DNA from: Arion vulgaris
Taxonomy: Eukaryota; Mollusca; Gastropoda; Stylommatophora; Arionidae
Length of the DNA: 64,000 bases
Direction of reading: 5' to 3'
Assembly: GCA_020796225.1 (NCBI GenBank)
Contig: CM036758.1
Span: forward strand, 71,522,366-71,586,365
Part shown: piece after piece, positions 23,256 to 45,012 of the stretch
Numbering within the stretch: the first letter of the stretch is position 1
How the letters are laid out: every line of letters starts with the position of its first letter
Notes under the pieces: generated by a model
Told to the model about the DNA's origin: nothing
Databases searched by the model: none
Seen by the model: only the letters and a program-made list of their open reading frames with translations
Program-made: the position numbers and the translations under genes

Positions 23256-23527
23256 TTAAGGAGAAGAATTAATACACAACACGGCTGCTAAAAAACACAG
23301 AGCAAAACATAGAAAGTCCATGGTGGTGTAGCCGCTGTGCAGAAATGATCTAGTCCTGCTTTCATTCGATCTGGTAGACAAAGGAAATCTGACCCTGTCC
23401 ATCTGTGTCATAATAGCGTCTTTCGCCCCTGACCAGGCACCATGTCCCATTAATCTATATTGGTAGGCGGTGCACGGTCCCACTATGCACGTGAATGCCA
23501 GTTTTGGATCTTTAAAGAACAGTCTAC
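23256..23527 (-). CDS. FMO: FMO exon 8 (C-terminus, tail anchor, stop)
   Basis: 272 nt, residues 539-628 and TAA. Acceptor CAATGCAG is followed by RLFFKDPKLAFTCIVGPCTAYQYRL, matching the end of the FMO fold. The end is hydrophobic (MDFLCFALCFLAAVLCINSSP). The stop-codon region is nearly the same sequence as the unit of the downstream 54-bp array. Confidence 0.92.
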
Positions 23528-26500: not shown

Positions 26501-29500
26501 ATTAAAATATAGTAACCCAAAACCATGAAAAATAATGTATAACGTGTATTTATTATTCTATAAATTAAAATATAGTAACCCAAAACCATGAAAAATAATG
26601 TATAACGTGTATTTATTATTCTATAAATTAAAATATAGTAACCCAAAACCATGAAAAATAATGTATAACGTGTATTTATTATTCTATAAATTAAAATATA
26701 GTAACCCAAAACCATGAAAAATAATGTATAACGTGTATTTATTACTCTATAAATTAAAATATAGTAACCCAAAACCATGAAAAATAATGTATAACGTGTA
26801 TTTATTATTCTATAAATTAAAATATAGTAACCCAAAACCATGAAAAATAATGTATAACGTGTATTTATTATTCTATAAATTAAAATATAGTAACCCAAAA
26901 CCATGAAAAATAATGTATAACGTGTATTTATTACTCTATAAATTAAAATATAGTAACCCAAAACCATGATTTATCCGGAAAAAATGTCTGGCCCCACCAA
27001 CAAAAATGATTACGAGCCGCCACTGATATTAGTCTTGGTTCTGATGCTGTATTGGGTTGATTTCCAGACCGTCTGAAGGGTCATGAACGCACTTCATACC
27101 TTAGTCAGTTTGCTTTAAATGTCAGAACCTGCTCCGTCACCAAATGACATTACCCATGATGCTTGCAGACTAACCGCAGCAGAAGATAAATAGACGTTAA
27201 ATCTGCTCATTATCATCTTTCTCCCGTTCTTTATCTTTAAAAAAAAAAGTTCTTTCTTCTGCTGTTTCAGAAGTTATATTTAAATAAGCATCTTTCCTCT
27301 CAAAACGCGTGCTGAAATATTTGCAAACAAATTCACCCTTTTAAACATACCCTCCTCTCTTACTACAATTATGTCCCCTATTATTAAATAATTCGTTTGC
27401 TGTTCAGTTAAATATATATTCTGAAGAAAAAAATGTTGGATTATTCTATTGAATATTATACCTAGTTTCGGCTTACATCCAATTATAGCAGCTAGCTCAT
27501 CCAAGTATGGAAGAAAGTCCACCTGAATAGTATGCCGCTGTGTTTGTATGTAGCGCTTCTCCACGGCTCGTTTCTTTATGGCAATGTCTTGCAACATCAC
27601 ATGCTGGGAGGGTAGTATTACCTCATTCTAGAGAAAATAATTGTTTGGATAATTTTTTGCTTGAGAGGAAATCGACATCAACAACATATTTATTACGCAC
27701 CAACAAACAAGTAAATAAGAAAAAGCCACAGATTCCCCAGATTTACGGTGTTCGTGGCACCGAACCGAAGGGTTACGATGTCCATGGCACCGAGCCGAAG
27801 AGCTGAAAAAGCTCGTGCTTCTGGATCGGAAAAAAAAAAATTTACTCGTATATATAGTTATTTTGAAAATACGTGAACAACCATTGTCTGGAAAACGAAT
27901 CTTGAGTCGCTAAAAACTGCAATATTTACAGTGATGATGATGTTGATGATGAGTATGATGATGATGTTGATGATGAGTATGATGATGATGTTGATGATGA
28001 GTATGATGATGATGTTGATGATGAGTATGATGATGATGTTGATGATGAGTATGATGATGATGTTGATGATGAGTATGATGATGATGTTGATGATGAGTAT
28101 GATGATGATGTTGATGATGAGTATGATGATGATGTTGATGATGAGTATGATGATGATGTTGATGATGAGTATGATGATGATGTTGATGATGAGTATGATG
28201 ATGATGTTGATGATGAGTATGATGATGATGTTGATGATGAGTATGATGATGATGTTGATGATGATTATGATGATGATGTTGATGATGAGTATGATGATGA
28301 TGTTGATGATGAGTATGATGATGATGTTGATGATGAGTATGATGATGATGTTGATGATGAGTATGATGATGATGTTGATGATGAGTATGATGATGATGTT
28401 GATGATGAGTATGATGATGATGTTGATGATGAGTATGATGATGATGTTGATGATGAGTATGATGATGCTCATCATACTCATCATACTCATCATACTCATC
28501 ATCACTATCATACTCATCATCAACATCTCGTTGATGAAAGAAATGACAGATTACAGGTAGAAACTGGAAATTAAATTCATAACTTGAAGATTAATTAGCG
28601 GAATCTGAGATTCAAGAATATCTTGAGACTAAAAAGGAGACACAATAGAAATTGAAGAGTATTTCGAGATCTCGAACAAATCAACTCTTTGGAGGGAAAA
28701 AAGCCACACTATGTAGCATTGGGTTGGAAGCCTTTTTTTACCAGGAGCCACACGAAATGGCATTTTTTATTGTAGAAACAAATGGCTTGTAAAAACATGG
28801 TGTTTGCCCTGGTCCACAAAGAGTTAAAGACTACGAAAAGAAAATGTTGGCTAAATAGAGAAATGTGAGATAATGCAGACTAATATAAAGCTAATAAGAG
28901 AAACTAGACATTAGAGACAAGCTGAAGATTAATGAGAAAACTTAACCATTTCGCACATCAGAGCTGATATATATTGACTCTCGTTAATTTTTAATACGAC
29001 GCAAAATAAGTAGACTAGTTAGTTCAGTATATACTGCAATATAAATTAATCATCATCAAGGTGCGTATCCTTTATAGGACGTTGCTCTCTTTGCAGCACA
29101 TCTGAAATTCACTCTGTCTCTAGCTAGTTCACCCACTTCGTCGATGGTCATATTCATGGTTTCTTTAATATCTTGTAACCATTTTCTTCTTGGTCTGCCT
29201 CTGCGTCCTGGGACCCTGCCCTCTAGTATTGTTCTTTCCAGGCCATCGTGACGCTTGATGTGACCAAAGTATGTAATTTTTCTGTATAGTATGTTGTTTA
29301 TCAGCCAATTCTCTTTAACATTTAGTGCTTTCAGGACATCAGTGTTCTTTCTTTTTCTGTCCATGGTATTCGTAGGATTTTTCTGTAGTATAAATTAATA
29401 CCGAGGTAAAAAAATTATGGAGTTGAAGAGTTTAAAAACAACCCAACGAAATTAAAAATTATTGGGAAAAATGGAAGATTTATGGAGATACAATTGTTGC

Positions 29501-32500
29501 TAAAAGATATTTGAAAATTATTCTGTGAAAATGGAGGTTAATGAAAGAGATTGTACATTGAAAAAAGTGAGAGTGTAGATTAACCCTTTCAGTACGACAA
29601 GCCACATGGCAAACCTTTACATGGAAAACATATTTAAAAAAGTGACACACAAAAACAAATTCTGGATAGCCTAACTTCATGACATTGACAAATTGTTCAC
29701 ATGTGAACTTTAAGTATGTACTTATGATAGATGTTTGTGAATATTCATGATCATCTACGTCAGCCGACATGGAACATGTTGAAGATGAATAATTATTGTT
29801 TTATTGTACCTTGAAAACTCTCGTGGCCAAGCGACTTTGCATTTCGGACACAGGAACAACAGCTCCGCCTGCTTGAACACAACCAATCACAGCAAGAGTG
29901 GGCGGGGTTATAGTAGGAGGAAACATGTAGAGGTACAATGGACATTGGTTATTTTGAACCATCAACTCTGATTGGTCAAGGAAAGGGAAGCCAAATTTGT
30001 AACCTGTAGCCATGACAACTGTGTTGATATCTGTAGGTAAACAAAGAGTTAACAAATGATTAAAGTTGTAAAAGAATATAATTATAAATTTTATTTGCAA
30101 CAGGATCAACTTATTCTTCTTCGTCACCATTCAACTCCCAGCGGAGCACAGGTCTTTAACAAGCTTCTTCCAGCTCTTCCTCTCTTCTGCCATCCCTTCC
30201 AATTCTTTCCATGTTTTACTTATCCTTTTAATATCAGCCACCAGCTCTCTTACCCAGGTATGTCTAGGCCTTCCACTAAACCTCTTTCCCTACGGGTTCC
30301 AAAACATTGCCTCTCTTGCAATGCTTCCGGTCGATCTGACAGGATCAACTAAATTTACACAAACTCACACACATATACACATACGCAAACACACCCACCC
30401 TTACCGATCCACACACTCGCAATATAAGCAAACAAACAGACGTAAGAAAACAATGCAGACAAATAAACAGATACAAGAAAACAATGCAGACAAATAAACA
30501 GATACAAGAAAACAATGCAGACAAATAAACAGACATAAGAAAACAATGCAGACAAATAAACAGACATAAGAAAACAATGCAGACAAATAAACAGACATAA
30601 GAAAACAATGCAGACAAATAAACATATATATGAAAACAATGCAGACAAATAAACAGATATGAGAAAACAATGCAGACAAATAAACAGACATAAGAAAACA
30701 ATGCAGACAAATAAACAGACATAAGAAAACACTGCAGACAAATAAACAGACATAAGAAAACAATGCAGACAAATAAACAGACATAAGAAAACAATGCAGA
30801 CAAATAAACAGACATAAGAAAACAATGCAGACAAATAAACAGACATAAGAAAACAATGCAGACAAATAAACAGACATAAGAAAACAATGCAGACAAATAA
30901 ACAGATGCATAGACTAAGTTTAAAGAGAATTTAATCAAATACCATGCCTACTGGCATAGGCCATCATTTCTGTTCACAACTATCTCTCCTTGGTGCTGCT
31001 AATCAGCTCTGACGTTGGTCTTTTGTCGAGCCACGATATCAGACCATGCAACATCTTCTACCTCTGTCGTCCACGATCTCTCCTTCCCTGATTGTTATTT
31101 TTTGTCACAAAATGTTACAAAATTCCTCTTCGCATTATATGTCCAATTATCTCTTATTCACAGTGGCGGCTCGTCATCATTTTTGTTGGTGGGGCCAGAC
31201 ATTTTTTTTCCGGATAAATCATGATTTTTGTTGCTATATTTTAATTTCTAAAATAATAAATACACGTTATACATTATTTTTGGTGGGCCCGCCCAGTGGC
31301 TCTTAATGACGAGCCGCCACTGCTTATTTATTTGATCAGGTTGTTTTATAACACCATCATTTGGGTTTTTTTTCGGTGCAAATTGAATTTTTAGCATTTT
31401 TCTGTAAAACCACATTTCTATTGCTTCAGCGATCTTATTGATTGCTTGTCTATTGTCCATGATTTGCTGTCATATAGTAAACACCCAGACAAAAATGTCA
31501 CTACGATGCACTTGATGATAGACTGTTAATATGTAGAAGACCTGCAAGGATGGTCCACATAAGACATGCACTTATAAGCTACAGAAGAGGCAGAGATGTA
31601 CAATATGCGTTATATTAACCCCTTCGCACTTCTAAGCCGATCCCCCGGCTCGTAGAATTTTTGAAGATGACACAAAGCAAGTATACTGGATAAATGAGTA
31701 CACATTGCAGAAAAAATACGTCCGGAAAAAACAATTTACGGAATAAAAGGGTTAAGAACAGTGGCGGCTCGTAGTTCTTTTTCTTGGAGGGGCCAGACAC
31801 ACATTTTCGGGAAAAGCATGGTCTTTGGAGTATTTACTATTATTTATATATTCCGGAAGTTCCCCCTTTCGATTATTGGTGCAGCCAGGTCCCACTGGCC
31901 CTTAATGACGAGCCGCCCCTGGTTAAGAATATTTATAACATAAAAATGACGGTAAGATATTTACCATCAGCCGTTGTTCCGTCAACAAATCTAACCCCAT
32001 TCTCTGTGAAGCAATCTATGTTGGGTTTGATAATCACTTGACCTGAAGCAATTCGGTTTGGTAGTTCATCATTCACTGTGGGATGGGCAGAGAATGGTCC
32101 GTGTTCTGGACTGTGAAGATAATACAATAGTTGATATAATGAGCATATGATCAACAGAGTAGAATGGTAAAGGCACAGTTTACATATAAATATATGTCAA
32201 TCCTTGTTTCTATAGAGTTTATATATAAATATATGTCAATCCTTGTTTCTATAGAGTTTACATATAGCCAGATGTCAACGTGCCACATCGAGTGGACCCA
32301 GATACCGTTGAAAGTGCTAAAACGCAGTGCTTTGTCATCCTTTCGAATGAGAGCTGCTCGGAGTTTACTTAAATGTATTTAGTTGCTTGTTGGCTCTATG
32401 AAGACTCCCAAACTTTGGCAGCGATCAAATGGGCACTACACTGTGATATTAGCCATAAGGTATGAAAACGTTTAATGTATAACTTTTAGCCAAGTCGAGT

Positions 32501-35500
32501 AAATACAACTGTATAAAACAGTGACGGACTGGATGACAAGTTAGTCCCTCATGAAGTGGACCCCTTGGTCTTAGATAATATATTAAAAATAAAAATATAA
32601 TACACACTTGAATAGCATTACTGTAGGCAACATAAATTTACGTAGTACTAATATTTTCATGAAGATTTAACAAATAATTTTTCAAAGATACTAATGGAAC
32701 AATAATTTAAATTGGAAAGCAAAATTAGCGTTACAGACATCTTAAAACTCCACAATATCACAGCATATCAAGCGATTGAGCGTGCATTATCTGATCATCA
32801 GTTAAACCTGCTACGCCTAGCGGCAAAAAAGCAGAGAAGGACAAAGAAATATGCTCTTTAAATGATAGGATTACAATAAATAGTGGGTGATCTTCCTTGG
32901 GTGTGTCATGATTAGTCTTGTCTCCTGACAACCAACGTTTTTTTAGACACAATTTAGACGCCATTGTGTATAATATAAATTGATAGTCCATTAGACTAAT
33001 TGTAAATAATTATTAATATTAAAGTATTTACACATAGATTCCCAAACTTTTTTGGCCCACCACCCACTTTGCACAACACAAACTTTGCAACGCCCCCCTC
33101 CCCATTGTACCAGTTTGCCAACGTCCCTCCCCAATATATACATGCTCTATTTTCTTTGACATAGAAAATATATATGTATGGCCCTTTCGTCTTTACAGAC
33201 GGTCAATGCCCGTCTACCCAGCGTGTTCGTAGCGCTTTGGGACTACGGATGACTATCCCTCTGTGTGTGTGGGTTCAATTCCGCGGGATGGCAGAAAAAG
33301 CCACAGATTCCCCAGATTTACGGTGTTCGTGGCACCGAACCGAAGGGTTACGATGTCCATGGCACCGAGCCGAAGAGCTAATAAGCTCAAGTGCTTCTGG
33401 ATCTGAAAAAACAAAAAACAAAAACAAAACAGACGGTCAATAGGCAAGTGTTTTACTGTGACAACTTCTGAGTTTTCGCTTTTCTCTCTTGTTGTTCAGC
33501 TCGTATATAAGTCTCTTCTCAAAGACTCTGCGCCCTTCCGTAATTTGGCTTTCCACACAACTCTGTCATCAGCTAGTCCCTCCCATGTGCTGGGATCTAT
33601 AGAACAGTTTTTCCTTGAGGTTTTGCAGGCATCTTTATATCTGAGCAGTGGTCTGCCCTGGTGCCTCTTCCCTCCGAAAGTTCACAGAACAACATTTGTT
33701 TTGGTATGCGATAAGTTTCATTCTTCTCACATGTCCCAACCATCTTAGTCGTCTACTGCTGAGCATGCCCATGATAGAAGGCAGATTTGCACGTTGTAGT
33801 ACTTCAGAGTTGGTTATCTTGTCGTACCACCTGATGTTCATAATCTTGCGGAGACATCGAAGGTGAAAGATGTTAAGTCTCCTCTCGTGTCTTGAGTAGG
33901 CTGTCCATGTTTCTGAGCCATATAGTAAAGAACTAATTACACATGCTCGATATATTTGAGTCTTCGTCTGCAATGTCAATTTTTTGTTGTCCCACGCTCG
34001 CTTTGATAGTTTGCCGAATGTAGTAGCCGCACTCCCTACACGAGCGCTGATTTCTTCATCAAGAGAAAGGCTGGCAGTGACCGTGGACCCAAGATAGCAG
34101 AATTTTTGCACTGGTGTTAGATGGTCGCCATTTAAAGTGATACATGGTCAATTTTCAAATGATTATATACGTGGAATAGAAAATAGATGAAAAAATGGAT
34201 CGTGTAAGACGGGCATAAGATGAATTAAAGTGCAGAATTCAAATTTTAAATGATTATTCAATCGCAAAATCACGAAAATAATTTATTTAAAAATATTTAT
34301 TATTAATTTCTTCTTTAAGGAACCACCGACCCCTAATCGCCTGAACATCCCCAAATTCTTCTGAACCCACTATCGCCCCCCTAGAACGCTTCAGCGCCCA
34401 CTGGGGTGGGGGGGGGGCGGTACCGCCCGTTTTGGGAAACGCTGGTCTACACGCACTGATATAATCAAAACAAGGTTTGTCACTAGGTTGAAGAAGCCGT
34501 GCCTCGGCTTAAAGAGGCTTTAATCCACTACATGACAAACAAACAAATAATTATAAATAAACTGCTCAGAAATTGTCATCATCATCATCAACATCATCAA
34601 GTAGCTTGTCCCTTCCAGAACTTGGCTCCCATGACAGCAGTCCTGAAAAACTCTCTGTTCTGTGCAAGTTGACCGATGTCAGCAGCAGTCATTCTCAGAT
34701 TGTCAATGACATGATGCACCCATCGTCTTCTAGGTCTTCTTCCTCTCATTCTTCTTCCAGGCATCATTCCCTCCAAAATTCGTTTGATGTTTTCTAAAAT
34801 ATTTAATTCTCATTGCTATTTGTTCTTTTTTTTCAATCCAGAAGCACTTGAGCTTTCAGCTCTTTGGCTCGGTACCATAGACATCGTAACCTTTCGGTTC
34901 GGTGCCACGAAACCGTAAATCTGGAGAACCTGTGGCTTTTCTGTCAACCCGTGAAATTGAACCCGCACTCATAGAGGGCTTATCACCCGTCGTCCAACGC
35001 GCTACGAACACGCTGGGCAGGTGGGCTTTCTCGTTCTTTAATGACCAACTCTATTTAACTGTTGCAGAACAGAATAATTGGTTCAGTAATTGTAGAAGTT
35101 GGAAACAAATGGGCTTACCGTAAACCGTAAAGTGTATGGTCCACAAAACGATTGAGATAAAACTCTGCAAATGTATTCAATATCCAAGTTGGTATCGCTA
35201 AGGCTGTAGCAAAGATTAAACGATTCATGTAGGAAACATCTGTCGGTAAACCATATTTATTAAGTCTGCGCATTATCCAAGATCCCCTTCGAGTACTAAG
35301 GTACACCTGTCGATATGAAAAAAAATAAAATTATATAGTGATGGAAAATAATGTTCTTTTTCAAGTCAAAAAATGAACCTGGTCATTCGAAGCAAGCGCG
35401 CTACCCACTACGCTATCGCAGCTCTCTAATCAGCATCTAGTAGCTTGTCCTGAGCAGAACTTTGCCACAATAAGAGTCCTACATAATTTCTTTCTCTCAT

Positions 35501-38500
35501 ATATCAGATGTCCCGCCGCCGGAGTGGTTACCCGGGACCAAATTGGGGTGTAAAGAATAGAACCACTGTTACCTGCCATGCATATCGTAAGAGGCGTCTA
35601 AGGAGGTTGGGCATGGAGCTAGCTACCCTACACCGTAAAAACACTAGATGGCTACAGAACAGAGAGCGAACCAAGTAAACGCTGGCTGAAACCGGACACA
35701 TCGCCGAAGGATAAGCACCAGAGCTCCAAATGGTGCTGAAAATATGACGTAAAACACACCAATGCTAAGACTGCATGAATCAGATTTCCACATGAATAGA
35801 ATTTATGGGGAGATCTGGTACATCGGTCTGGGCGTGATATCGACAGAGAGAGAGAAGAGAGATGTCCCGCCTCAGTTGCCACCATCCTCAAGGCATTAGA
35901 CACATCCTGTATCCATCTTCTTCGTTGTCTTCCCTACTTCTATTTGCCAAGATGTCTCCTTCTATAATGGTTGTACCCAATCCTTTGTACCTAGCATACG
36001 TCCAACATATCTTAGTCTTCTCATTCTTGTTTGTAACAGCAGTCACTTTTCTGTGATTTTGAAATCCTTCGGATCTATTTGTTCACTTTACAACTCTCTA
36101 AACTTGAAACAAAAATTTTAAAATAAATTCTCAATTTGTTCCCCAGTATCTGATGTTTTTTTGGAAAATAACTTTTTTAATGAACTGCTCTAAATTGTTG
36201 AGTAACTGATTCAGTACGTCTTACTTGATGAAGTACGAGAATATAGATAGATAGACATATTAGATAGATAGACAGACAGACTAGACAGACAGACTAGACA
36301 GACAGACTAGACAGACAGACTAGACAGACAGACTAGACAGATTAGACAGACAGACAGACAGACTAGACAGACAGACAGACTAGACAGACAGACTAGACAG
36401 ACAGACTAGACAGACAGACAGACAGACTAGACAGACAGACTAGACAGACAGACTAGACAGACAGACTGACAGATTAGACAGATTAGACAGACAGACAGAT
36501 TAGACAGATTAGACAGACAGACTAGACAGACAGACTGACAGATTAGACATACAGATTAGACAGATTAGACAGATTAGACAGACAGATTAGACAGATTAGA
36601 CAAGACTAGACTAGACTAGACTAGACTAGACAGACAGACAGATATAGACAGACAGATACAGACAGACAGACAGATTAGACAAGACTAGACTAGACTAGAC
36701 TAGACTAGACTAGACTAGACTAGACAGACAGACAGATATAGACAGACTGATACAGACAGATACAGATACAGAGACAGACAGACAAGACGGACAAGACAGA
36801 CAGACAGACAGACAGACAGATAGATAGCAGTAAGTTTCATGACATAATAAAATGTTGTGAATTGTGTGTGAAGTTTAAAGTCTGAATGTTAATCGTGACA
36901 GACATACAGATAGACTCATGTACACTAAATAAAAGATCGTCACTAGCCTTCAAGTGTGCACAGATTTCATATAACTTCCATTTTCTATTGTTCTATCCGG
37001 CACATGACACTTTTGATATAGTTTGTGTAAACATACCTGACCAAAACGGCTGAGTTCAACAGCAACATCACAGCCAGAGTTACCGATGCCTACAACCACG
37101 TGACGAGATTCTGTAGGCACATTTACTCTTCGCAGATCACGGGAGTGTAATATCTGACCTTTGAACTTAGACTGACCTTGAAATGGAAAGTGCAATCATT
37201 TAACATCAATTAATGTTATAGTTTGTTCCAAAATTCGTGATCAAACTAAGGTTTAATTTTTACTAAATCTACTGGACGGATACAAGTAATTTTTGCATGC
37301 AGTCTTATATACCTCACGACGTTACGAATTCATGTTTAACTAATTGGTAGGTAGCTTAGTTGATGCAAAAAACGTTTTTTGTTATATAATTTTGCATAAA
37401 CACAACAAAATGATAATCAAAGTTTAGAACTTACAGTAATACACAAAATGGTGGCGAATGATTGCAAAGGTGTATTCCTATTACATATTATAAAAAGAAA
37501 GGTGACATTGTGAACAAATGATATCTTCCACTTCTATAAATGAAAGTAAATGTTGCGTACATACGCCAATGACAGTCGGTATGAAACATTGTGAAGTAAT
37601 TAATTCCACGGGAATCCCGATTTTGACTTGCACTGAATGTATGTGGAACTCGGAAATGCTTAGTTATAGACAAACTTGACAATCGTACTGTAAAATTTCG
37701 ACAAGTATACCAGATCAACATCGCGGTAAATTTAGTAATAACATATAATAAAATTCTTACAGAACTAAAGGTTTGGGTGGGCAAAAATACTTTTGGAACG
37801 TCGTCACTGTTACCTATATAAAAATGCAAAAATCAAGAATTTCTGTCAAAGTGGATGATTTTATATCGGTCGGTAAAGATGATCACGAATTCTGGAACGA
37901 ACTATAGCTACTATTTTTTTTTTTATTGTACAAAGTGTTGATTTTTTTCGTTCCAGAAACACTTGATCTTTCAGCTCTTCGGCTCGGTGCCATGGACATC
38001 GTAACCCTTCGGTTCGGTGCCACGAACACCGTAAATCTGCAGAACCTGTGGCTTTTCTGCCAGCCCACGGAATTGAACCGCACTCACAGGGGTTTGTCAC
38101 CAGTCGTCCAACGCGCTACAAACACGCTGGGCAGGCGGGCGCAAAGTGTTGATAGAGACCACAGCCAACTCTAGATAACTAGGCCAGACAATTGACTGGT
38201 GAGTCCCTGACCTAGATCAGAGAAGGGGCTGGAAAATATAGATGTTTGATAGAACACTGCAAGCTATTTTTGCAATTTTACTCAATTCTGTGAGTCTATG
38301 GTTATTTATTGGTGACAAATATTCATAATATTGATATCTCTTCCTTAAACTTAACTTGTTGCATAATATAACTTCGATTTATCATTTTGTGTGATTTTAA
38401 AATGAATTCGTCGTCTATATAAACCAATACTGGAATGCGAGGTTACGTGGTGTAGTTGTGGTCTGATTTCCCATAATTCTTACTTGAGTCCGAAGGCCCA

Positions 38501-41500
38501 TAAGTTTATAGATGGCTCTGATAAAGACCCACAATAATACGAAACCTAGAAGCGAGGAATTATCAACAATTGTCATCATCATCATCAGGTGCCGTGCTGG
38601 CTGGCGTAGGCGACCAAGGATCTCTACAAATCTCTGTCCCTGTTGTTCGCTATCCTCTCAGATGTTGACGCTCTTCCGAGCCATGAAGTCAGGATATCCA
38701 AAATTTTCTCTCTCTGCATTTCTCTGTTTCGTCTACCCTCGATTTTACCGGCTGTAACAATGTGTTCTAAACCTCAATTCCTCAACACGTTTGAAAAAAT
38801 ATGAGTGCCTCTTTTGTAAGTCAACAATTGTAGATAAAAATAAATTTAAAAAATAACCATAATAATATTGAAACGTTTAAACACTTGGTCAACCAACCTT
38901 GAAAGTAGGGCATGTTGATATCAGCATGGTGACCCGTACAGATAAGAACAAAATCAAAATAATGGACAATGACGTCATTGGTTATTTTATCCTTGACCTT
39001 AATTTCCCATCTGCCAGATAATGGCGGATATTCTGTTTCTTGACTCTCAGTCTTATCTTGAACACACGCCTTTGATTTATCCAGATCGTTTGCCATGTGT
39101 TTGTTTTTCTGTTGATCGTCTTTTTTAGATTGATAGTTGCATTGTGTATCAGTCTTACTGTTGCTAGTTGTGTTGTTAATATCGCTACTAGATTGTGTGC
39201 AACTTTCTCGAGCAGACAGATTCGAAGTGTTTCCAGTGCCAAAATCGGTTTGATCTGTAACATTCTCATTACTAAACCCTTTCGTGTCTTGATGTGCAAC
39301 GTTGCTTTCTGTTATAGCTAGAACTTCAGTGTTGTACTGTATGAATTGCCGAAGTCTGAACCTGGTGACACAATAAAATACATAAATTAAACACAGACAT
39401 GATATTTCACTTCTAGCTTTTCTTCCATAATGACTACATCTCTATTAGCTATATTTGTTCTGTCTCTAACACTGTCGTGTCTTAGCAGCGCCGGATTAGC
39501 CTAGTAGCAGAAGTCGAAAATGCTACGGGCCCCGCGCTTCTGGGGGCCCCGCGCCTATGTGACAGAGATGAAAAATAAAAAAAATAACCAAGATGTTATA
39601 TAAAAAACACGCAAGCTGTCTGAGTTTTTAAGTGTCGTGGGTGATGGTGCTGAATCCAAAGAAATCGAAGCAGGAAATACAGAAGTCTCGTCTCACTGTG
39701 TAGTAGATGAGGGCAGTGCTATAGAAGAATCATCATTACAAATATTTCCATTAAGATCAGCAACTCTTCACGATTTAGCCACATCTTCCAGAAGACAAAC
39801 TGAAGTCGAATGTACAGCAAGTTCTCCCAATTTAGCAAAAAACATACGATAAAGAAAACAATCCACGATTTTGTCGAAAATCGTTTTTCACATATACACA
39901 TAAACCAACTAACAAAACTCATGTGAGAGATTGGTTGCGTTATTCAGAAACTAAAGGACAACTTTTCTGTTTTGTTTGCAAAGTTACTAATTCAGGCTGT
40001 TCGTCACGGTTTACGAAAGAAGGATTTGACGATTGGAAAAACGCAAATAATTTGTTGAAAAGACATGAAGAAAGCACCTCCCATAGAAAAGCGATAATTT
40101 CACTGTTAGTTTGCACAAAGAAGGATGCGCGTTCCGATTCTCAACTTGTAAGTCAAATTGAGACCGAACAAAAATATTGGCTGACACTTTTAGAGCGAAT
40201 TACTTCAGTTATCCAATTTTTAGCAGAACGAGGTTTTGCACTTCGGGGTAGTGATGAAACTATTGGTTCACCTAATAATGGAAATTATTTAGGTTTGTTG
40301 GAATTAATAGCCAAATGTGACATTTTTCTGGCTCAGCATATAATTACTTATGCAAATAAAGGAAAGGGACATACATCGTACTTATCAAAAACAACAGATG
40401 AGGAATTTATCCATCTAATTGCATCAAGCTTACTGGATCATATTATTTGCGAAATTAAGAAATGCAAGTACTATTCCGTATCACTGGACTCTACTCCAGA
40501 CATTTCGCATGTGGGCCAACTCACTCTAATAGTGCGCTATGTGTTACCATCTGGACCAGTGGAAAGGTAAGTCAAGTTCTTGGATATGGAAGGTCATACT
40601 GCTGAACATCTCGTCCAAAGTTTACTTGATTTTTTAACGAAAAATGGCATTGATATCAAAGACTGTCGCGGTCAAAGCTATGACAATGCCAGCAACATGA
40701 GTGGGAAATACAACGGCTTACAAGCACGCATTAAGGAGATAAATAAGTACGCAGAATACATTCCCTGCTTTGCACATTCACTGAATTTGGTTGGTAAGTG
40801 TGCTGCAGAATGTTGTATTATGCATCCCAGTCATTATGCATCCATTTTTTCGATTTTGTTGAAAACCTCTATACATTCTTTTTCTCTTCCACCTAGTGAC
40901 GGGGAATTCTCACAAAGCACTGGAAGATACAGGTTAAAAACTCTTGACTTTGTCTCTTCAGACTGTCGGACACCAGGTGGTCTTCCCGAGCTGATGCGAC
41001 AAAAGCACTTTTATGTGGTTTTACCATTATCAAACAAGTTTTGGATGACATCTCAAATAACATGGATCAAAAGGTAGAGTGTCGTAATCAAGCGTATGGT
41101 CTAGTTTTGGAGATGAGTAAGTTGGAAACGGGAATAGTTAGCATTTTATGGAACGGAATTTTAGAACGCTTGCAAGCGTATAGCGCTTCATTACAGTCAC
41201 CTGATCAAGACCTTAACCCTTTCGCTGCTACATACTTTCTGAAGGCTGGGCTAAAAATAGCTACTCTTTGTTTCTAGGTCACAAACGTGTATGTATGCCT
41301 ATAGCAGTGACAGTAGCAATGTATAACGTGTTAACACGTCTTTATCCGAAAGAGGAGAGATAATAACACACGTGTTAATGCGTCTTTAGAAGTGAATGGG
41401 AAAACGTATATATACGTCCTTAGCAGCTAAAGGGTTAACACGGGATATGCTCTTTATGAATCGTTACACGGGTACGTTCAAGCAATGCAGCCTACATTTT

Positions 41501-44500
41501 CAGATATTGAGGCCAAAGCCAAAATCCTGACTGACTGTCAAGAATATCAACAACAAACTTTAAGATGACGCAAGCGAAATACTTAGTACGACGATTTCCG
41601 TACTACTACGCTCGATGAAGTTGTAGAAAATCAAACACCCAAACAAAAATTTGAAAGTCAGGAGTTTATTGACATAATTGATAATGTACTCTCTGCCTTA
41701 GCTAAATGCATGGAGTAAATAGAGCGTACCATAGAGTGAATGGTGTATTTGGAATACTTTGGCAGTTAAAATCTCTTACAGCAGAAGAGATCTTGAAAAG
41801 AACTCCAAATATTGTCAGCTCTTACCAAGAGGATTTGGAAGAAAGCCTAGGCGACGAACTTGTGCAGTTCGTTGAACTTCTTAAAACTAATGTAGCTGCT
41901 GCTATTAGCAACGAAAAGAATGAGGCCCTTGAACTGCAATTTTATAAACTTATAATGGAAAATTCACTAGAGTCGTGTTTCCCAAATGTAGAAGTAGTCT
42001 TACGAATTTACTTGTCTTTAATAATAACTAACTGCAGCGGAGAACGTTCTTTTTCAACATTAAAGCGTATAAAAAGTGAGTTAAGAAACATGATGGGACA
42101 AGATCGTCTAAATAACCTCACCTTAATGAACATTGAATGTAATTTACTTAGAGAAATTGATTTGTCTAGTATTATCTCTAAATTTGCTCACATTAAATCG
42201 AGACAAGTTTGTTTGTAAAATTTATGTTTTATTTTATTATCATACAAAACTTAGGCCCCCTTGCTGGCCTAATCCGGCACTGTGTCTTAGTTAAACCGTC
42301 GTATGACTGACTCTAGGTACAACAGTAAATATTGTCCTAGTTAAACCGTCGTATGACTGACTCTAGGTACAACAGTAAATATTGTCCTAGTTAAACCGTC
42401 GTATGACTGACTCTAGGTACAACAGTAAATATTGTCCTAGTTAAACCGTCGTATGACTGACTCTAGGTACAATAGTAAATATTGTCCCAGTTAAACCGTC
42501 GTATGACTGACTCTAGGTAAAACAGTAAATATTGTCCTAGTTAAACCGTCGTATGACTGACTCTAGGTAAAACAGTAAATATTGTCCTAGTTAAACCGTC
42601 GTATGACTGACTCTAGGTAAAACAGTAAATATTGTCCTAGTTAAACCGTCGTATGACTGACTCTAGGTAAAACAGTAAATATTGTCCTAGTTAAACCGTC
42701 GTATGACTGACTCTAGGTACAATAGTAAATATTGTCCTAGTTAAACCGTTGTATGACTGACTCTAGGTAAAACAGTAAATATTGTCCTAGTTAAACCGTC
42801 GTATGACTGACTCTAGGTACAATAGTAAATATTGTCCCAGTTAAACCGTCGTATGACTGACTCTAGGTAAAACAGTAAATATTGTCCTAGTTAAACCGTC
42901 GTATGACTGACTCTAGGTACAATAGTAAATATTGTCCCAGTTAAACCGTCGTATGACTGACTCTAGGTAAAACAGTAAATATTGTCCTAGTTAAACCGTC
43001 GTATGACTGACTCTAGGTAAAACAGTAAATATTGTCCTAGTTAAACCGTCGTATGACTGACTCTAGGTACAATAGTAAATATTGTCCTAGTTAAACCGTT
43101 GTATGACTGACTCTAGGTAAAACAGTAAATATTGTCCTAGTTAAACCGTCGTATGACTGACTCTAGGTACAATAGTAAATATTGTCCCAGTTAAACCGTC
43201 GTATGACTGACTCTAGGTAAAACAGTAAATATTGTCCTAGTTAAACCGTCGTATGACTGACTCTAGGTAAAACAGTAAATATTGTCCTAGTTAAACCGTC
43301 GTATGACTGACTCTAGGTACAACAGTAAATATTGTCCTAGTTAAACCGTTGTATGACTGACTCTAGGTAAAACAGTAAATATTGTCCTAGTTAAACCGTC
43401 GTATGACTGACTCTAGGTAAAACAGTAAATATTGTCCTAGTTAAACCGTCGTATGACTGACTCTAGGTAAAACAGTAAATATTGTCCTAGTTAAACCGTC
43501 GTATGACTGACTCTAGGTAAAACAGTAAATATTGTCCTAGTTAAACCGTCGTATGACTGACTCTAGGTGAAATGAAAATCGTGACATATCCTAAAGGACG
43601 TAGCCATCAACCACAGTAAACGAGTCGTTGATTTTCTAGGCACCACTTATACGTTCAGTAGTTTACAATTGCTTTCTGAACGGTGAGATCTATTGTTACC
43701 TTTTTATAAAAATCCCACGGAAACGAATTTGCTTCCAAATTTGCCCACCGTGGGATTTGAACCAAGTACGCTTGGGTTCGTGATCGAGCTCACTACCGCT
43801 TGAGCTACAGACGCTCACAACAGTAGGTACTACAGACTCTAGGTACAACAGTAAATATTGTCCTAGTTAAACCGCCGTAGAGCTGACTGTAGGCATCAAG
43901 TGTTTGTTGTTGTTAACCCCTTCGTCATTCAAGCCGATATACCGGCTCGCAATATTGTTCAAGATGACGCAAAGCTAGTTTACTGGCTAATTTAGTAAAC
44001 ATTCCAATATAAATGCATCCGAAGAAGATACAAATATGGATTGAAAAGGTTAAATTTATCACTAGTTCCTGAAACTTTTAACTTTTTATTTTTTTTTTAG
44101 TTTTCGAGAGTGGTGGATCGGACGGGTATGTACTCTTTTTTTCATGAAGATATGTGTTTCTTGCACTATCAAACTCCTGAACAATTAATATCACATTTAT
44201 CAATGTAATTTAGAACAACATTTGGAACTTGCCTAGCGCAGGAAAGGAATGATGCATCTTACATCCCCAATACAAGTTGGATATAAATATTCACTTTGTG
44301 GCGTATATTCAAAAGAAAGCTGGATGGAAACACTCACTTTGTGGCGTATATTCAAAATAAAGTTAGATTGAAACACTCTCTTTGTGGCGTATATTCAAAA
44401 TAAAGTTAGATTGAAACACTCTCTTTGTGGCGTATATTCAAAAGAAAGTTAGATTGAAACACTCTCTTTGTGGCGTATATTCAAAAGAAAGCTGGTTGGA

Positions 44501-45012
44501 AACACTCACTTTGTGGCGTATATTCAAAAGAAAGCTGGGCGGAAACACTCACTTTGTGGCGTATATTCAAAAGTTGGATAGAAATACCCACTTTGTGGCG
44601 TATATTTGAAAAAAAGTTGGATGAAGATACCCACTTTGTGGCGTATATTCAACAAGACAGTTGGATAGAAATACTCACTTTGTGGCGTATATTCAACAAG
44701 AAAGTTGGATGAAGATACTCACTTTGTGGCGTACAAATTAAAATATTCCAGAACTTTACTGTGATGCATTAGATTGGGAAATTCTTTAGGCGCTGGGAAG
44801 TCGCTGAATGACATCATTTCCTTGCTCGTGTTGATGACCGTAAAGTTCATGACACTGCCACGTTTATCTGTTAGGTCATCTGTAAATCGCCAAAGTCCAC
44901 CTAGGTCAGATGATGACTCGAAGCACGTCGGTACCAGGTTCTCATCCAAGCAGCATTTGATAGCGCCTAGACCAGTGCATCCTGCCCCAACTATGGCAAC
45001 ACGTTTTGACAT
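23256..45012 (-). CDS. FMO: Flavin-containing monooxygenase (FMO), complete 8-exon gene, 628 aa
   Basis: The exons 44723-45012, 38898-39361, 37037-37176, 35119-35306, 31965-32110, 29810-30030, 27462-27627 and 23256-23527 join to 1887 nt with every phase matching. FMOs are FAD- and NADPH-dependent enzymes that oxygenate N, S or Se atoms of small nucleophiles, usually at the ER membrane. Visible hallmarks: FAD motif GAGCTG (residues 9-14), GGLWRF (38-43), FMO signature FKGQILHSRD (256-265), NADPH motif GIGNSG (281-286), ATGY (417-420), the RHTIQVDF block and GPCTAYQYRL (555-564). A C-terminal hydrophobic segment (about 608-625, FLCFALCFLAAVLC) fits the usual tail anchor. The protein is about 90 residues longer than usual because of a polar insertion at about 118-205 in exon 2. 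No stop, frameshift or missing key residue was seen, so it looks functional. Introns total about 19.9 kb and are largely repeats. Confidence 0.93.
23690..23957 (-). mobile_element. Retroposon family F, copy in FMO intron 7
   Basis: Contains CTCTTTGTGATATGG, GGTTTGGTAGGCCCCTAAAC and CTCTTACGACATGCGTGGCA. A close relative lies at 24705-25215. Confidence 0.78.
24054..24290 (+). mobile_element. SINE family C, copy 2
   Basis: Head GGTCTCTGTGGCTAAGTGG, B box GGGTTCGAGTC, tail GCAATAAAGTCAATCC. ATGTTGCTGG occurs on both sides (target duplication). In FMO intron 7. Confidence 0.9.
24705..25215 (-). mobile_element. Retroposon family F, copy split by a LINE fragment
   Basis: Matches the 23690 copy on both sides of 24868-25110, where LINE RNase H sequence is inserted. 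Confidence 0.75.
24868..25110 (+). pseudogene. LINE RNase H fragment
   Basis: DDVVYTNGSVQRGEKSGWGF, then a stop, NVHGRIAAERSGAYRTTTSS and MRMEVETVTAAYVSMHTLRY: RNase H catalytic start (DGS to NGS). Inserted in retroposon F, FMO intron 7. Confidence 0.85.
25235..25435 (-). pseudogene. LINE 3' fragment
   Basis: Matches 60350-60545 (GCAAGTAATTTCTCCTCCAT, CTCAGCAAAGTTTGTTTCA). Confidence 0.8.
25792..27025. mobile_element. hAT-type MITE copy 2 with an 18-unit internal satellite
   Basis: Intact TIRs and exact TSD ATATTAGT (25784-25791 and 27026-27033). About 1.1 kb of its 1234 bp is the 63-bp tandem array; without it the element would be about 160 bp, the size of its siblings. It is inserted in a minus-strand LINE fragment in FMO intron 7. 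Confidence 0.96.
25835..26968. repeat. 63-bp tandem array (18 units) inside a MITE
   Basis: Near-identical units containing AATGTATAACGTGTATTTAT and TAACCCAAAACCATGA. Copies differ at a handful of sites, for example TTATTACTCT replacing TTATTATTCT near 26428, 26743 and 26932 (spacings of 5 and 3 units). Because 63 is a multiple of three, the minus strand reads as a 429-residue repetitive ORF; this is not a gene. Confidence 0.97.
27462..27627 (-). CDS. FMO: FMO exon 7
   Basis: 166 nt, residues 484-538 plus one base. It starts NEVILPSQHVML after acceptor TTCTCTAG and includes RYIQTQRHTIQVDFLPYLDE. Donor is GTATAA. Confidence 0.9.
27718..27841 (+). mobile_element. SINE family A, copy 4 (5'-truncated)
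   Basis: Begins at GAAAAAGCCACAG in the body; the tRNA head is missing. Ends GCTTCTGGATCGG plus A-tail. In FMO intron 6, antisense to the gene. Confidence 0.88.
27933..28530. repeat. 24-bp GAT-rich array ending in an inverted block
   Basis: About 22 units of ATGATGTTGATGATGAGTAT plus GATG (27933-28466), then 28467-28530 switches to the complementary CATCATACTCAT sequence. In FMO intron 6. Long ORFs on both strands are artefacts. Confidence 0.95.
28531..29049. other. No gene seen (FMO intron 6)
   Basis: AT-rich. 28946-29045 has weak TTAA MITE-like features (CCATTTCGCACATCAGAGC) but no clear right end. Confidence 0.55.
29050..29370 (-). pseudogene. LINE C-terminal fragment
   Basis: A clean 102-codon stretch: NVKENWLINNILYRKITYFG, HIKRHDGLERTILEGRVPGR, RGRPRRKWLQDIKETMNMTI. 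FMO intron 6, sense. Confidence 0.88.
29584..29640. mobile_element. Left end of a TTAA/CCC MITE
   Basis: TTAA at 29580-29583 followed by CCCTTTCAGTACGACAAGCC. I found no matching right end; a truncated relative of the TTAA-flanked family. Confidence 0.4.
29810..30030 (-). CDS. FMO: FMO exon 6 (ATGY motif)
   Basis: 221 nt, residues 410-483: DINTVVMATGYKFGFPFLDQ, then TLAVIGCVQAGGAVVPVSEMQSR. Acceptor TTTACCTACAG, donor GTACAA. It ends on a codon boundary. Confidence 0.93.
30110..30350 (-). pseudogene. LINE 3' fragment
   Basis: Minus-strand block resembling 52500-52795 (GCTTCTTCCAGCTCTTCC-type Arg/Lys-rich coding complement). FMO intron 5. Confidence 0.6.
30437..30908. repeat. 31-bp tandem array, about 15 units, FMO intron 5
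   Basis: Unit AACAATGCAGACAAATAAAC plus AGACATAAGAA. Three overlapping minus-strand ORFs arise because 31 is not a multiple of three; none is a gene. Confidence 0.96.
30940..31470 (-). pseudogene. LINE C-terminal fragment split by MITE copy 3
   Basis: 30940-31160 and 31323-31470 together match 11378-11765 (family 'DGLTSWFD'). Confidence 0.8.
31161..31322. mobile_element. hAT-type MITE copy 3
   Basis: 162 bp, same TIR family, TSD CTTATTCA / CTTATTTA (one mismatch). Opposite orientation to copy 1. It splits a LINE fragment at 30940-31470 in FMO intron 5. Confidence 0.92.
31619..31751. mobile_element. Short TTAA-flanked MITE (133 bp), FMO intron 5
   Basis: Flanked by TTAA (31615-31618, 31752-31755), ends CCCCTTCGCAC and AATAAAAGGG, with the internal palindrome CCGATCCCCCGG. 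It is related to 43917-44049 and to the ends of the longer element at 45575-46756. A hAT-type MITE inserted directly at its right TTAA. Confidence 0.85.
31759..31921. mobile_element. hAT-type MITE copy 4, next to FMO exon 5
   Basis: 163 bp, exact TSD GTTAAGAA (31751-31758 and 31922-31929). The right TIR has one change (GCCGCCCCTG). It inserted at the right end of the 133-bp TTAA MITE, and ends 43 bp from the end of FMO exon 5. Confidence 0.94.
31965..32110 (-). CDS. FMO: FMO exon 5
   Basis: 146 nt, residues 361-409 plus one base. It encodes RPEHGPFSAHPTVNDELPNR and the strand IKPNIDCFTENGVRFVDGT. Acceptor ATCTTCACAG, donor GTAAAT. A complete hAT-type MITE ends only about 43 bp downstream of the donor junction. 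Confidence 0.92.
32172..32276. repeat. 51-bp tandem repeat, about two units, FMO intron 4
   Basis: ATATATGTCAATCCTTGTTT and TCTATAGAGTTTA recur; lies about 60 bp upstream of exon 5's acceptor. Confidence 0.85.
32290..33190. other. No exon seen (FMO intron 4)
   Basis: AT-rich. A 77-codon minus-strand ORF at 32758-32991 has no recognisable domain and is not needed by the FMO reading frame. Confidence 0.55.
33208..33428 (+). mobile_element. SINE family A, copy 5, with 13-bp target duplication
   Basis: Full-length, flanked by ACAGACGGTCAAT at 33195-33207 and 33429-33441, proof of retroposition. In FMO intron 4. Confidence 0.96.
33450..34150 (-). pseudogene. LINE ORF2 C-terminal fragment
   Basis: 158 open codons: FCYLGSTVTASLSLDEEISA, YRACVISSLLYGSETWTAYS, LRKIMNIRWYDKITNSEVLQ, RLRWLGHVRRM. 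The frame breaks near 33635. FMO intron 4. Confidence 0.88.
34570..34800 (-). pseudogene. LINE 3' fragment
   Basis: Minus strand has RGRRPRRWVHHVIDNLRMTA-like coding and AAVRQLA-type sequence, related to 35435-36060. The plus-strand Ser-rich ORF is a shadow. Confidence 0.65.
34825..35026 (-). mobile_element. SINE family A, copy 6
   Basis: Full-length but more diverged; same head, A/B boxes and tail. In FMO intron 4, about 90 bp from exon 4. Confidence 0.9.
35119..35306 (-). CDS. FMO: FMO exon 4
   Basis: 188 nt, residues 299-360 plus two bases of Arg361. It starts VYLSTRRGSWI, the strand following the NADPH motif, and ends FVDHTLYGLR at donor GTAAGC. Acceptor is TATCGACAG. Confidence 0.92.
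35370..35428 (-). mobile_element. tRNA-like SINE head fragment
   Basis: Minus strand GATAGCGTAGTGGGTAGCGC followed by TGACCAGGTTCAT; looks like an isolated tRNA-related head in FMO intron 3. Confidence 0.4.
35435..36060 (-). pseudogene. LINE 3' fragment split by retroposon F
   Basis: Left (35435-35517) and right (35860-36060) parts join across the 12-bp TSD; similar to 48830-49085 in style. Confidence 0.75.
35518..35859 (+). mobile_element. Retroposon family F, full-length with 12-bp target duplication
   Basis: 342 bp starting GCCGGAGTGGTTACC and ending in a GA-rich tail, flanked by AGATGTCCCGCC (35506-35517 and 35860-35871). It contains GTTACCTGCCATG and CGTAAGAGGCG, shared with five other loci. 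Inserted in a LINE fragment in FMO intron 3. Confidence 0.85.
36246..36826. repeat. CAGA/TAGAC simple-sequence array, FMO intron 3
   Basis: About 580 bp of mixed (CAGA)n, (TAGACAGACAGAC)n and (CTAGA)n blocks with no fixed higher-order unit. Likely very length-variable. Confidence 0.95.
37037..37176 (-). CDS. FMO: FMO exon 3 (FMO signature and NADPH-binding motif)
   Basis: 140 nt, residues 252-298. It contains FKGQILHSRD, the family-defining motif, and VVVGIGNSGCDVAVEL, the second Rossmann GxGxxG. It is flanked by acceptor TTTCAAG and donor GTATGT. Confidence 0.93.
37190..37930. other. No exon seen (FMO intron 2)
   Basis: AT-rich single-copy intron sequence; a 113-codon minus-strand ORF (37488-37829) has no recognisable features. 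Confidence 0.55.
37943..38141 (-). mobile_element. SINE family A, copy 7, with 12-bp target duplication
   Basis: Flanked by CAAAGTGTTGAT at 37931-37942 and 38142-38153. In FMO intron 2, sense orientation. Confidence 0.95.
38158..38495. repeat. Dispersed repeat G, copy 1 (about 335 bp)
   Basis: Matches 56216-56570 along its whole length, starting CCACAGCCAACTCTAG and ending TTTCCCATAATTCTTAC. Type unknown. In FMO intron 2. Confidence 0.8.
38580..38800 (-). pseudogene. LINE C-terminal fragment (family 'DGLTSWFD')
   Basis: Minus-strand ILDILTSWLG-like reading; matches 11390-11610. FMO intron 2, about 100 bp before exon 2's donor side. Confidence 0.75.
38898..39361 (-). CDS. FMO: FMO exon 2 (with long polar insertion)
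   Basis: 464 nt from acceptor TGTCACCAG to donor GTTGGT. Residues 98-251: FRLRQFIQYNTEVLAI joins the exon 1 fold, then roughly 90 Ser/Asn/Thr/Asp/Lys/Gln-rich residues, then GRWEIKVKD and the conserved CTGHHADINMPYFQG strand. The exon lies only about 125 bp downstream (in gene orientation) of the hAT transposon in intron 1. Confidence 0.9.
39637..42218 (+). pseudogene. hAT transposase (TTF-type zinc finger/ZMYM1-like), broken
   Basis: Recognisable order: acidic N-terminus; TTF-type zinc-finger region at 39923-40090 (RDWLRYSETKGQLFCFVCK, then GFDDWKNANNLLKRHEES, SHRKA); catalytic-core segments SVSLDSTPDISHVGQLTLIV and GQSYDNASNMSGKYNGLQAR; PCFAHSLNLV; and C-terminal hAT dimerisation block NCSGERSFSTLKRIKSELRN near 42030-42090. 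Breaks: an in-frame stop at 40568-40570, frameshifts at about 40830-40975, a 218-bp MITE at 41217-41434, and further shifts at about 41570-41710. It cannot make an active transposase as read. Confidence 0.92.
41217..41434. mobile_element. TTAA-flanked piggyBac-like MITE nested in the hAT transposase
   Basis: 218 bp with ends CCCTTTCGCTGCTA and TAGCAGCTAAAGGG, flanked by TTAA on both sides (41213-41216, 41435-41438). TTAA target and 5'-CCC ends are piggyBac hallmarks. It is an inverted near-copy of 4209-4427. Its insertion cuts the transposase frame after residues SPDQDLN. Confidence 0.93.
42290..43570. repeat. 50-bp tandem array (about 25 units) in FMO intron 1
   Basis: Unit includes TTAAACCGTCGTATGACTGA and AACAGTAAATATTGTCCTAG. 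Variants (GGTAC/GGTAA, ACAG/ATAG, CCTAG/CCCAG, CGTC/CGTT) occur in repeated order about seven units apart, suggesting block duplication. It begins right at the hAT target duplication; a remnant lies at 43834-43900 beyond a SINE. Confidence 0.97.
43575..43818 (-). mobile_element. SINE family B2, copy 2, inside the 50-bp array
   Basis: Full-length copy that separates the main 50-bp array from a remnant unit at 43834-43900, so it inserted after the array formed. Confidence 0.88.
43917..44049. mobile_element. Short TTAA-flanked MITE (133 bp), FMO intron 1
   Basis: TTAA at 43913-43916 and 44050-44053. It starts CCCCTTCGTCATTCAAGCC and shares the GCCGATATACCGGC palindrome and AAGATGACGCAAAG core with the 31619 copy. 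Same length as that copy, suggesting one source. Confidence 0.83.
44292..44735. repeat. 43-bp tandem array repeating the FMO exon 1 donor site
   Basis: About ten intronic units plus the real boundary. On the minus strand each unit includes TACGCCACAAAGTGAGT, i.e. the last roughly 11 bases of exon 1 and its donor. Units at about 44335, 44510, 44553 and 44677 keep GTGAGT exactly; two have GTGGGT; three read GAGAGT and one GTGAAT. Confidence 0.92.
44723..45012 (-). CDS. FMO: FMO exon 1 (FAD-binding motif)
   Basis: Residues 1-96 and two bases of Lys97. It starts MSKRVAIVGAG, with the FAD dinucleotide-binding loop at residues 9-14, and ends EYFNLYATK at a GTGAGT donor (GT at 44721-44722). The last roughly 11 exon bases and the donor are copied about ten times in the adjacent intron (see the 43-bp array). 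Confidence 0.93.

Follow-up and report, generated by a model that had tools for sequence, protein, structure and literature searches.

A 43-bp minisatellite with splice donor copies straddles the end of exon 1 in an FMO gene of the slug Arion vulgaris

The first coding exon of an FMO gene in the genome of the slug Arion vulgaris ends within a 43-bp minisatellite, in which the real exon end and its splice donor are followed by ten copies of the same junction. The array lies on the minus strand of the window, as we call the whole stretch of 64,000 nucleotides of contig CM036758.1 (assembly GCA_020796225.1) that was analyzed here. We consider it about 75% probable that it is an ordinary minisatellite that was born across an exon-intron junction and is tolerated because the exon-proximal donor normally wins. 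A 43-bp tandem duplication would by chance have spanned the end of exon 1 and would then have been amplified to 11 units, with the donor sequence carried along as a passenger. The exon-proximal donor, being the first to be transcribed and the one with the real exon upstream of it, would normally be chosen, and all copies would then lie within the intron and be removed by splicing. Occasional use of a downstream donor would lead to a stop after codon 97 and probably to NMD, with slightly lower output and no change of the protein. Straddling arrays would have arisen several times in this minisatellite-rich genome.

Exon 1 matches the Pfam family PF00743 with an E value of 1.6e-40 (139.6 bits against a cut-off of 22; genome match at C6:71567087-71567371). 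The gene model on the minus strand comprises eight exons, all with GT-AG borders, and encodes 628 aa in a frame that is open throughout. Coding exon 1 (44723..45012, 290 nt) ends in phase 2 with ...LYAT plus AA; here and below, a slash marks an exon-intron or exon-exon junction. Exon 2 (38898..39361) follows the acceptor TGTCACCAG/GTTCAG and is spliced to give ..ATK/FRLRQF.., with intron 1 (44722-39362, 5.4 kb) in between. Exons 3 to 8 occupy the stretch 23256..37176 (37176-37037, 35306-35119, 32110-31965, 30030-29810, 27627-27462, and 23527-23256), as placed by the gene model and Pfam matches. The product spliced at the first donor is gapless at the exon 1-exon 2 junction against the FMOs of Biomphalaria (P0017), Physella (P0018), and Candidula (P0020). 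The exon 1 junction is older than the array, because the exon 1 frames of three relatives (P0001-P0003) also all stop at 97 residues; an intron made by the duplication was rejected on account of this shared exon end. At another FMO locus, L019 (C2:62.705 Mb), the frame passes the intron 1 position (profile 1-173 in a single frame), so this intron is lacking there. Exon 2 of the window gene harbors a polar low-complexity insert of about 95 residues (39020-39315, minus strand) that is absent from aligned Aplysia and Arion FMOs, shorter in Biomphalaria, and longer in Candidula.

According to TRF, the minisatellite (44274..44733, minus strand) has a period of 43, 10.7 copies, 88% matches, and a score of 615; it was also delineated by a repeat search and an alignment of 11 units. 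On the minus strand, CGCCACAAA occurs 11 times, as the real exon end and ten copies behind it. The last base of exon 1 is 44723 and the donor GT lies at 44722-44721, so that exon end and donor read ...TACGCCACAAA/GTGAGTATC (CACAAA/GTGAGTATC at 44714..44728, placed by the collinear protein at the junction with the Biomphalaria, Physella, and Candidula FMOs). The array starts 11 nt inside exon 1, and the 43-bp unit consists of 11 nt of exon (TACGCCACAAA, the exon-derived part common to all units) and 32 nt of intron. TRF and the 11 occurrences bear out the preliminary description of a 43-bp unit with about 11 exon bases and a GTGAGT donor.

The ten copy donors sit 44, 88, 131, 170, 213, 256, 299, 342, 385, and 428 nt past the real donor, in steps of 39 to 44 nt and not at the constant 43 nt that had been assumed. 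All lie on the minus strand. Donors 1 (44673..44681), 4 (44547..44555), 5 (44504..44512), and 9 (44332..44340) read AAA/GTGAGT, donors 2 (44629..44637) and 3 (44586..44594) read AAA/GTGGGT, and donor 10 (44289..44297) reads AAA/GTGAAT, while the donor is destroyed (GAGAGT) in units 6 to 8 (44375..44469). Seven of the ten copies thus retain GT at +1/+2, and donors other than GTGAGT, or lost donors, are found in six. The earlier counts of ten copies and four exact donors, the others being GTGGGT or GAGAGT, agree with ours except that the GTGAAT of unit 10 had gone unmentioned. It was also correct that an array of decoy donors lies directly behind the real one, four of the ten being identical to it over 9 nt. 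Donor scoring, as had been suggested, placed these four exact copies level with the real donor, both in U1 duplex energy (-7.6 kcal/mol) and with a human donor matrix (8.41). Across the array, a U1 duplex of -6.8 or -7.6 kcal/mol was predicted for six of the ten copies.

A 22-nt piece of the unit, searched with up to two mismatches in the 1.52-Gb genome of the species, had 11 matches within this array and 2 isolated ones, 13 in total, compared with 1 + 1 matches for the reversed control in the same search. This is far above chance, as with any tandem array. This points to a local birth of the array; a mobile repeat carrying a donor was rejected as a candidate because the unit is found only here apart from the two isolated near-matches. 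Arrays with a period of at least 10 and at least 2.5 copies make up 13.5% of the window, and a motif test found no donor-like motif in the consensus of any other such array in the window. Ordinary intronic minisatellites are likewise abundant in the slug, and those of the window differ from the exon 1 array in lacking this motif. One of them is a second, larger minisatellite in intron 1 (42283-43572; 50 bp, 25.8 copies), with a further partial unit near 43830-43890; the same intron holds remnants of a hAT-type transposase (DUF4371, Dimer_Tnp_hAT) at 39836-42218 on the plus strand. For Deroceras laeve, another slug, the share of the genome added by TRF is 28.39% (PMC12506671).

Exon 1 ends after the AA of a lysine codon, and the intron opens with G TGA, which gives K and then a stop. 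Since the G completes the last codon of the phase 2 exon and TGA follows, use of any of the ten downstream donors would produce the same 97-residue fragment, whatever the length of the extension. The expectation that 43 nt per unit would shift the frame except at multiples of three therefore does not hold, as the stop comes at once in every case. Frame-preserving copies (units 5 and 8, whose distances of +213 and +342 are multiples of three) were rejected as a candidate for the same reason. Transcripts containing such a stop are probable NMD targets. Whereas the frame of the window gene closes with TGA directly after codon 97, it stays open after downstream donor use at two other exons described below, the sister exon L031 (24-bp unit) and an EFL1-like exon (48-bp unit, frame of 754 aa).

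PF00743 has 56 exon matches in the genome of the species. We surveyed 30 FMO exon matches with cut loci, defining a clear donor as one with a score of 5 or more and dropping L033, a last exon. Nineteen of the 30 matches had a clear donor, and an array straddles it in four of these 19, namely, in the window exon, in exon 1 of two sister genes, and in a later exon of the second sister; these four cases have three origins. On the acceptor side, the same script found two match starts (of 30) overlapped by arrays, which thus reach both kinds of exon edge. The sister exon 1 arrays at C6:33.715 and 33.786 Mb consist of related 31-bp units with CAG/GTGAGA. In the first sister, the real donor is followed by two copies, an inserted stretch, and then a block with 14 CAG/GTG starts that comprises 13 full units, each CAGGTGAGA. 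Intron 1 of the sisters lies 32 nt upstream of that of the window gene (sister exon 2 starts with V(H/Y)EYF), a position that makes separate origins of the 31-bp and 43-bp arrays most likely. A 24-bp array of 11.5 copies is found in the later exon of the second sister (L031:1686-1975, C6:33.798 Mb). Its unit combines 17 nt of exon with 7 nt of donor and keeps the frame open, repeating FLDKQ/VGA. The exon end FLDKQ/GTAGGT recurs there about 12 times in frame, and VGAFLDKQ repeats would result from read-through.

Searching with the predicted FMO, we identified the UniRef record A0A0B7AE17 (here P0118), named Arion vulgaris, which agrees at 100% with the sister gene located at C6:33.785-33.807 Mb. 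We take its accession series to be transcriptome derived. Residues 15 to 87 correspond to exon 1 (73/73) and residues 88 to 170 to exon 2 (83/83), with no residue in between. Across the 24-bp array, the protein reads ..ATGYSFGFSFLDKQ/VVDVQDNKVELY.. (..FSFLDKQ/VVDVQDN..) without any added VGAFLDKQ, at a locus whose genome sequence offers 24-bp units with equally good donors. As exons 1 and 2 are joined without an insert and the 24-bp array is passed without a repeat, P0118 joins both array-bearing junctions at the first donor, in a single record with no contig listed. It is the only entry named as Arion among the matches listed (120 of 1,542), many of which carry no species name. P0118, a match to L021, shares 92% identity with exon 1 of the sister gene L020 but only 60% with exon 2 of that gene; gene conversion of exon 1 may have taken place.

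The array had been put forward as a possible length-polymorphic splicing switch. In a regulated form of this idea, downstream donors would be used depending on tissue or condition and would lower FMO output, with array length setting the level. As to array length, the analysis covered one assembly, in which the array has one match. We regard such a switch as unlikely, even though four downstream donors equal the real one over 9 nt and the same stop behind every downstream donor would make its output clean. The predicted exposure of the donors as single strands is also similar, with unpaired fractions of 0.36 for the real donor and 0.24 to 0.45 for the four intact copies. Folding gives no consistent difference between real donor and copies, and RNA structure hiding the decoys was rejected as a candidate. 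Against a switch, the donor is not clearly conserved, and three consecutive units have lost it. When diversity was compared over 11 aligned units and all 44 circular windows, it was 0.105 for the donor 9-mer versus 0.211 elsewhere in the unit, with 14 of the 44 windows as low; for GTGAGT alone, it was 0.158 versus 0.195, with 19 of the 44 circular windows as low. There is no clear sign in the window array that decoy donors have been either retained or purged, and selection preserving them, tested as a candidate, found no clear excess conservation. In addition, the protein record of the sister gene shows first-donor joining at two array junctions, and the window gene has no matching transcript record among the proteins searched (exons 1 and 2 matched 24 proteins, the top one, P0004, at 65% identity over 36% of the query). 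The proposed switch is therefore not supported, given donor columns that are not clearly better kept and a sister protein that joins at its first donor.

The exon-derived part of the unit behaves differently. None of its 11 columns varies, compared with 13 of the 24 gap-free intron-derived columns (Fisher P = 0.002), and among gap-free columns of the window array, the longest invariant run is 14, a length reached in 64 of 20,000 shuffles. Plain neutrality does not predict these invariant columns, which stand out as an oddity of the window array. The 31-bp array of L020 lacks this contrast (4 of 14 exon-derived versus 3 of 17 intron-derived columns vary); its donor 9-mer is invariant across 13 units, with a diversity of 0 versus 0.145 for the rest, and 4 of 31 windows are as low.

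A further alternative concerns the origin of the arrays. Exon-intron junctions could be preferred birthplaces of minisatellites in this genome, with the origin tied to the donor itself. The recurrence of four or five separate straddling arrays in a small survey is in its favor. The 30 FMO loci span 97,083 bases and contain 98 TRF rows (overlapping ones counted), and from a rough estimate of one array start per kilobase and units near 35 bp, about 0.7 straddled donors would be expected among the 19, against 3 independent ones observed (Poisson P of about 0.03). This excess is weak, and since the survey was prompted by the window case, it is partly post hoc. The cytochrome P450 family, considered as a base-rate sample, showed many long single-frame matches. 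Genome-wide, triples of CAGGTRAGT (gaps of 6 to 36) number 1,359 + 1,350 = 2,709 versus 1,173 + 363 = 1,536 for the reversed motif, a ratio of 1.76, and triples of AGGTRAG number 17,736 + 18,382 = 36,118 versus 12,332 + 11,858 = 24,190, a ratio of 1.49. Both ratios exceed that of single CAGGTRAGT sites (10,877 + 10,139 = 21,016 versus 9,965 + 8,875 = 18,840; 1.12), but the triples are not independent, as 100 listed CAGGTRAGT triples lie in 16 arrays, and the reversed control differs threefold between strands (1,173 versus 363). The direction favors donors; the enrichment is unproven because the triples are clumped in few arrays and the control is uneven. All in all, seeding by the donor seems improbable to us as the general origin. 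The over-representation of donor motifs in tandem triples may nevertheless speak against plain passive straddling, though the counts are clumped, and the window case itself is probably neutral. Least plausible, and in our estimate very unlikely, is that the copies form a landing strip on which U1 snRNP, bound without splicing, shields intron 1 from premature cleavage and polyadenylation, as known from U1 telescripting, or boosts transcription near the promoter: the retained GTs, the six predicted U1 duplexes, and the position at the upstream end of a long intron would suit this idea, but the loss of a good donor in four of the ten units argues against strong selection.

Donor arrays also occur outside the FMO family. 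When three spaced AGGTRAG motifs were searched for, the places listed fell into six arrays within the first 2.7 Mb of C1, of which four (468k, 729k, 981k, and 992k) were inspected and two (2599k and 2709k) were left out. An exon-like upstream edge was seen at 468k and 992k; the array at 981 kb has no exon at its edge, and the sequence viewed at 729 kb stopped short of the edge. At C1:992.5-996.0 kb (992505-996014, L070-L085), an exon-like frame ends with ..VRSDLQ/GTGAGTAGT and is followed by in-frame 48-bp units. The amplified donor is CAG/GTGAGT, and the open frame extends over 754 aa. This array holds 72 of the first 100 CAGGTRAGT places on C1, mostly spaced by 48 or 51 bp.

The exon at 992 kb matches the Pfam family EFL1 (PF25118) with an E value of 7.9e-4, which is below the curated cut-off. 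In the genome, PF25118 has seven matches, none over the cut-off. Two of them flank the array on the same strand, one at C1:992406-992549 (profile 1-48, E = 0.39) and the other 3 kb behind the array, at C1:999180-999299 (profile 40-80, E = 0.073), which is suggestive of an exon-array-exon order. The name EFL1 is tentative, because the matches are below the cut-off and profile 40-88 finds its best match (E = 9.9e-4) elsewhere, at C1:103.07 Mb. The second candidate, at C1:468 kb, is a 41-bp array behind ..TKDWQ/GTAAGACTAAT, whose frame has no Pfam match and a PDB match only at chance level (E = 1.1). Taken further, these loci could belong to a whole class of donor-seeded minisatellites, in perhaps hundreds of genes and with up to at least 70 perfect copies, in which splicing is locked on the first copy; we hold this to be a tentative possibility.

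The layout is already known from the human gene IFI6 (6-16, G1P3), where the repeat units of a minisatellite located at an exon-intron junction likewise provide splice donors. Turri, Cuin, and Porter are said to have described it in 1995 (NAR 23:1854). In the slug window, too, the array straddles the junction, with 11 units and GTGAGT in the real unit and four of the ten copies. The human gene makes use of downstream units and encodes isoforms (PMC4526556). The window gene differs in that its reading frame would close immediately on use of any downstream donor; the human case is more nearly matched by the two arrays with in-frame units, the 24-bp one at the sister FMO exon and the 48-bp one at the EFL1-like exon. 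For human segmental-duplication genes, internal tandem repeats that lie across exon-intron boundaries and vary between paralogues have been described; new introns or altered exons reportedly result from them in recent paralogues (PMC2812944). In the slug, by comparison, the array came after the exon end and seems to remain within the intron. Tandem duplication across an intron-exon boundary is also a described route of intron gain (PMC4974935). In contrast to that process, the slug FMO has no new intron, and its junction predates the array. Among titles and abstract openings, we found no donor-bearing minisatellite reported for a slug or another mollusc. The interest of the slug is the set of such arrays in one genome.

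Minigenes are the usual tool for studying the choice among identical 5' splice sites. In the slug, a single genome places 10 (window FMO), at least 16 (sister FMO), and about 70 (EFL1-like exon) donor copies behind exons. This set is a natural test of 5' splice site choice, of the decay of usage with distance, and of the leakage of in-frame repeats into protein. If the class of donor-seeded arrays is real, it would be a genome-wide natural experiment in which the 5' splice site is determined by position and exon context rather than by donor sequence alone. It would also be a reservoir for the sudden appearance of protein repeats where the unit is in frame, as in the EFL1-like 48-bp and the FMO 24-bp arrays.
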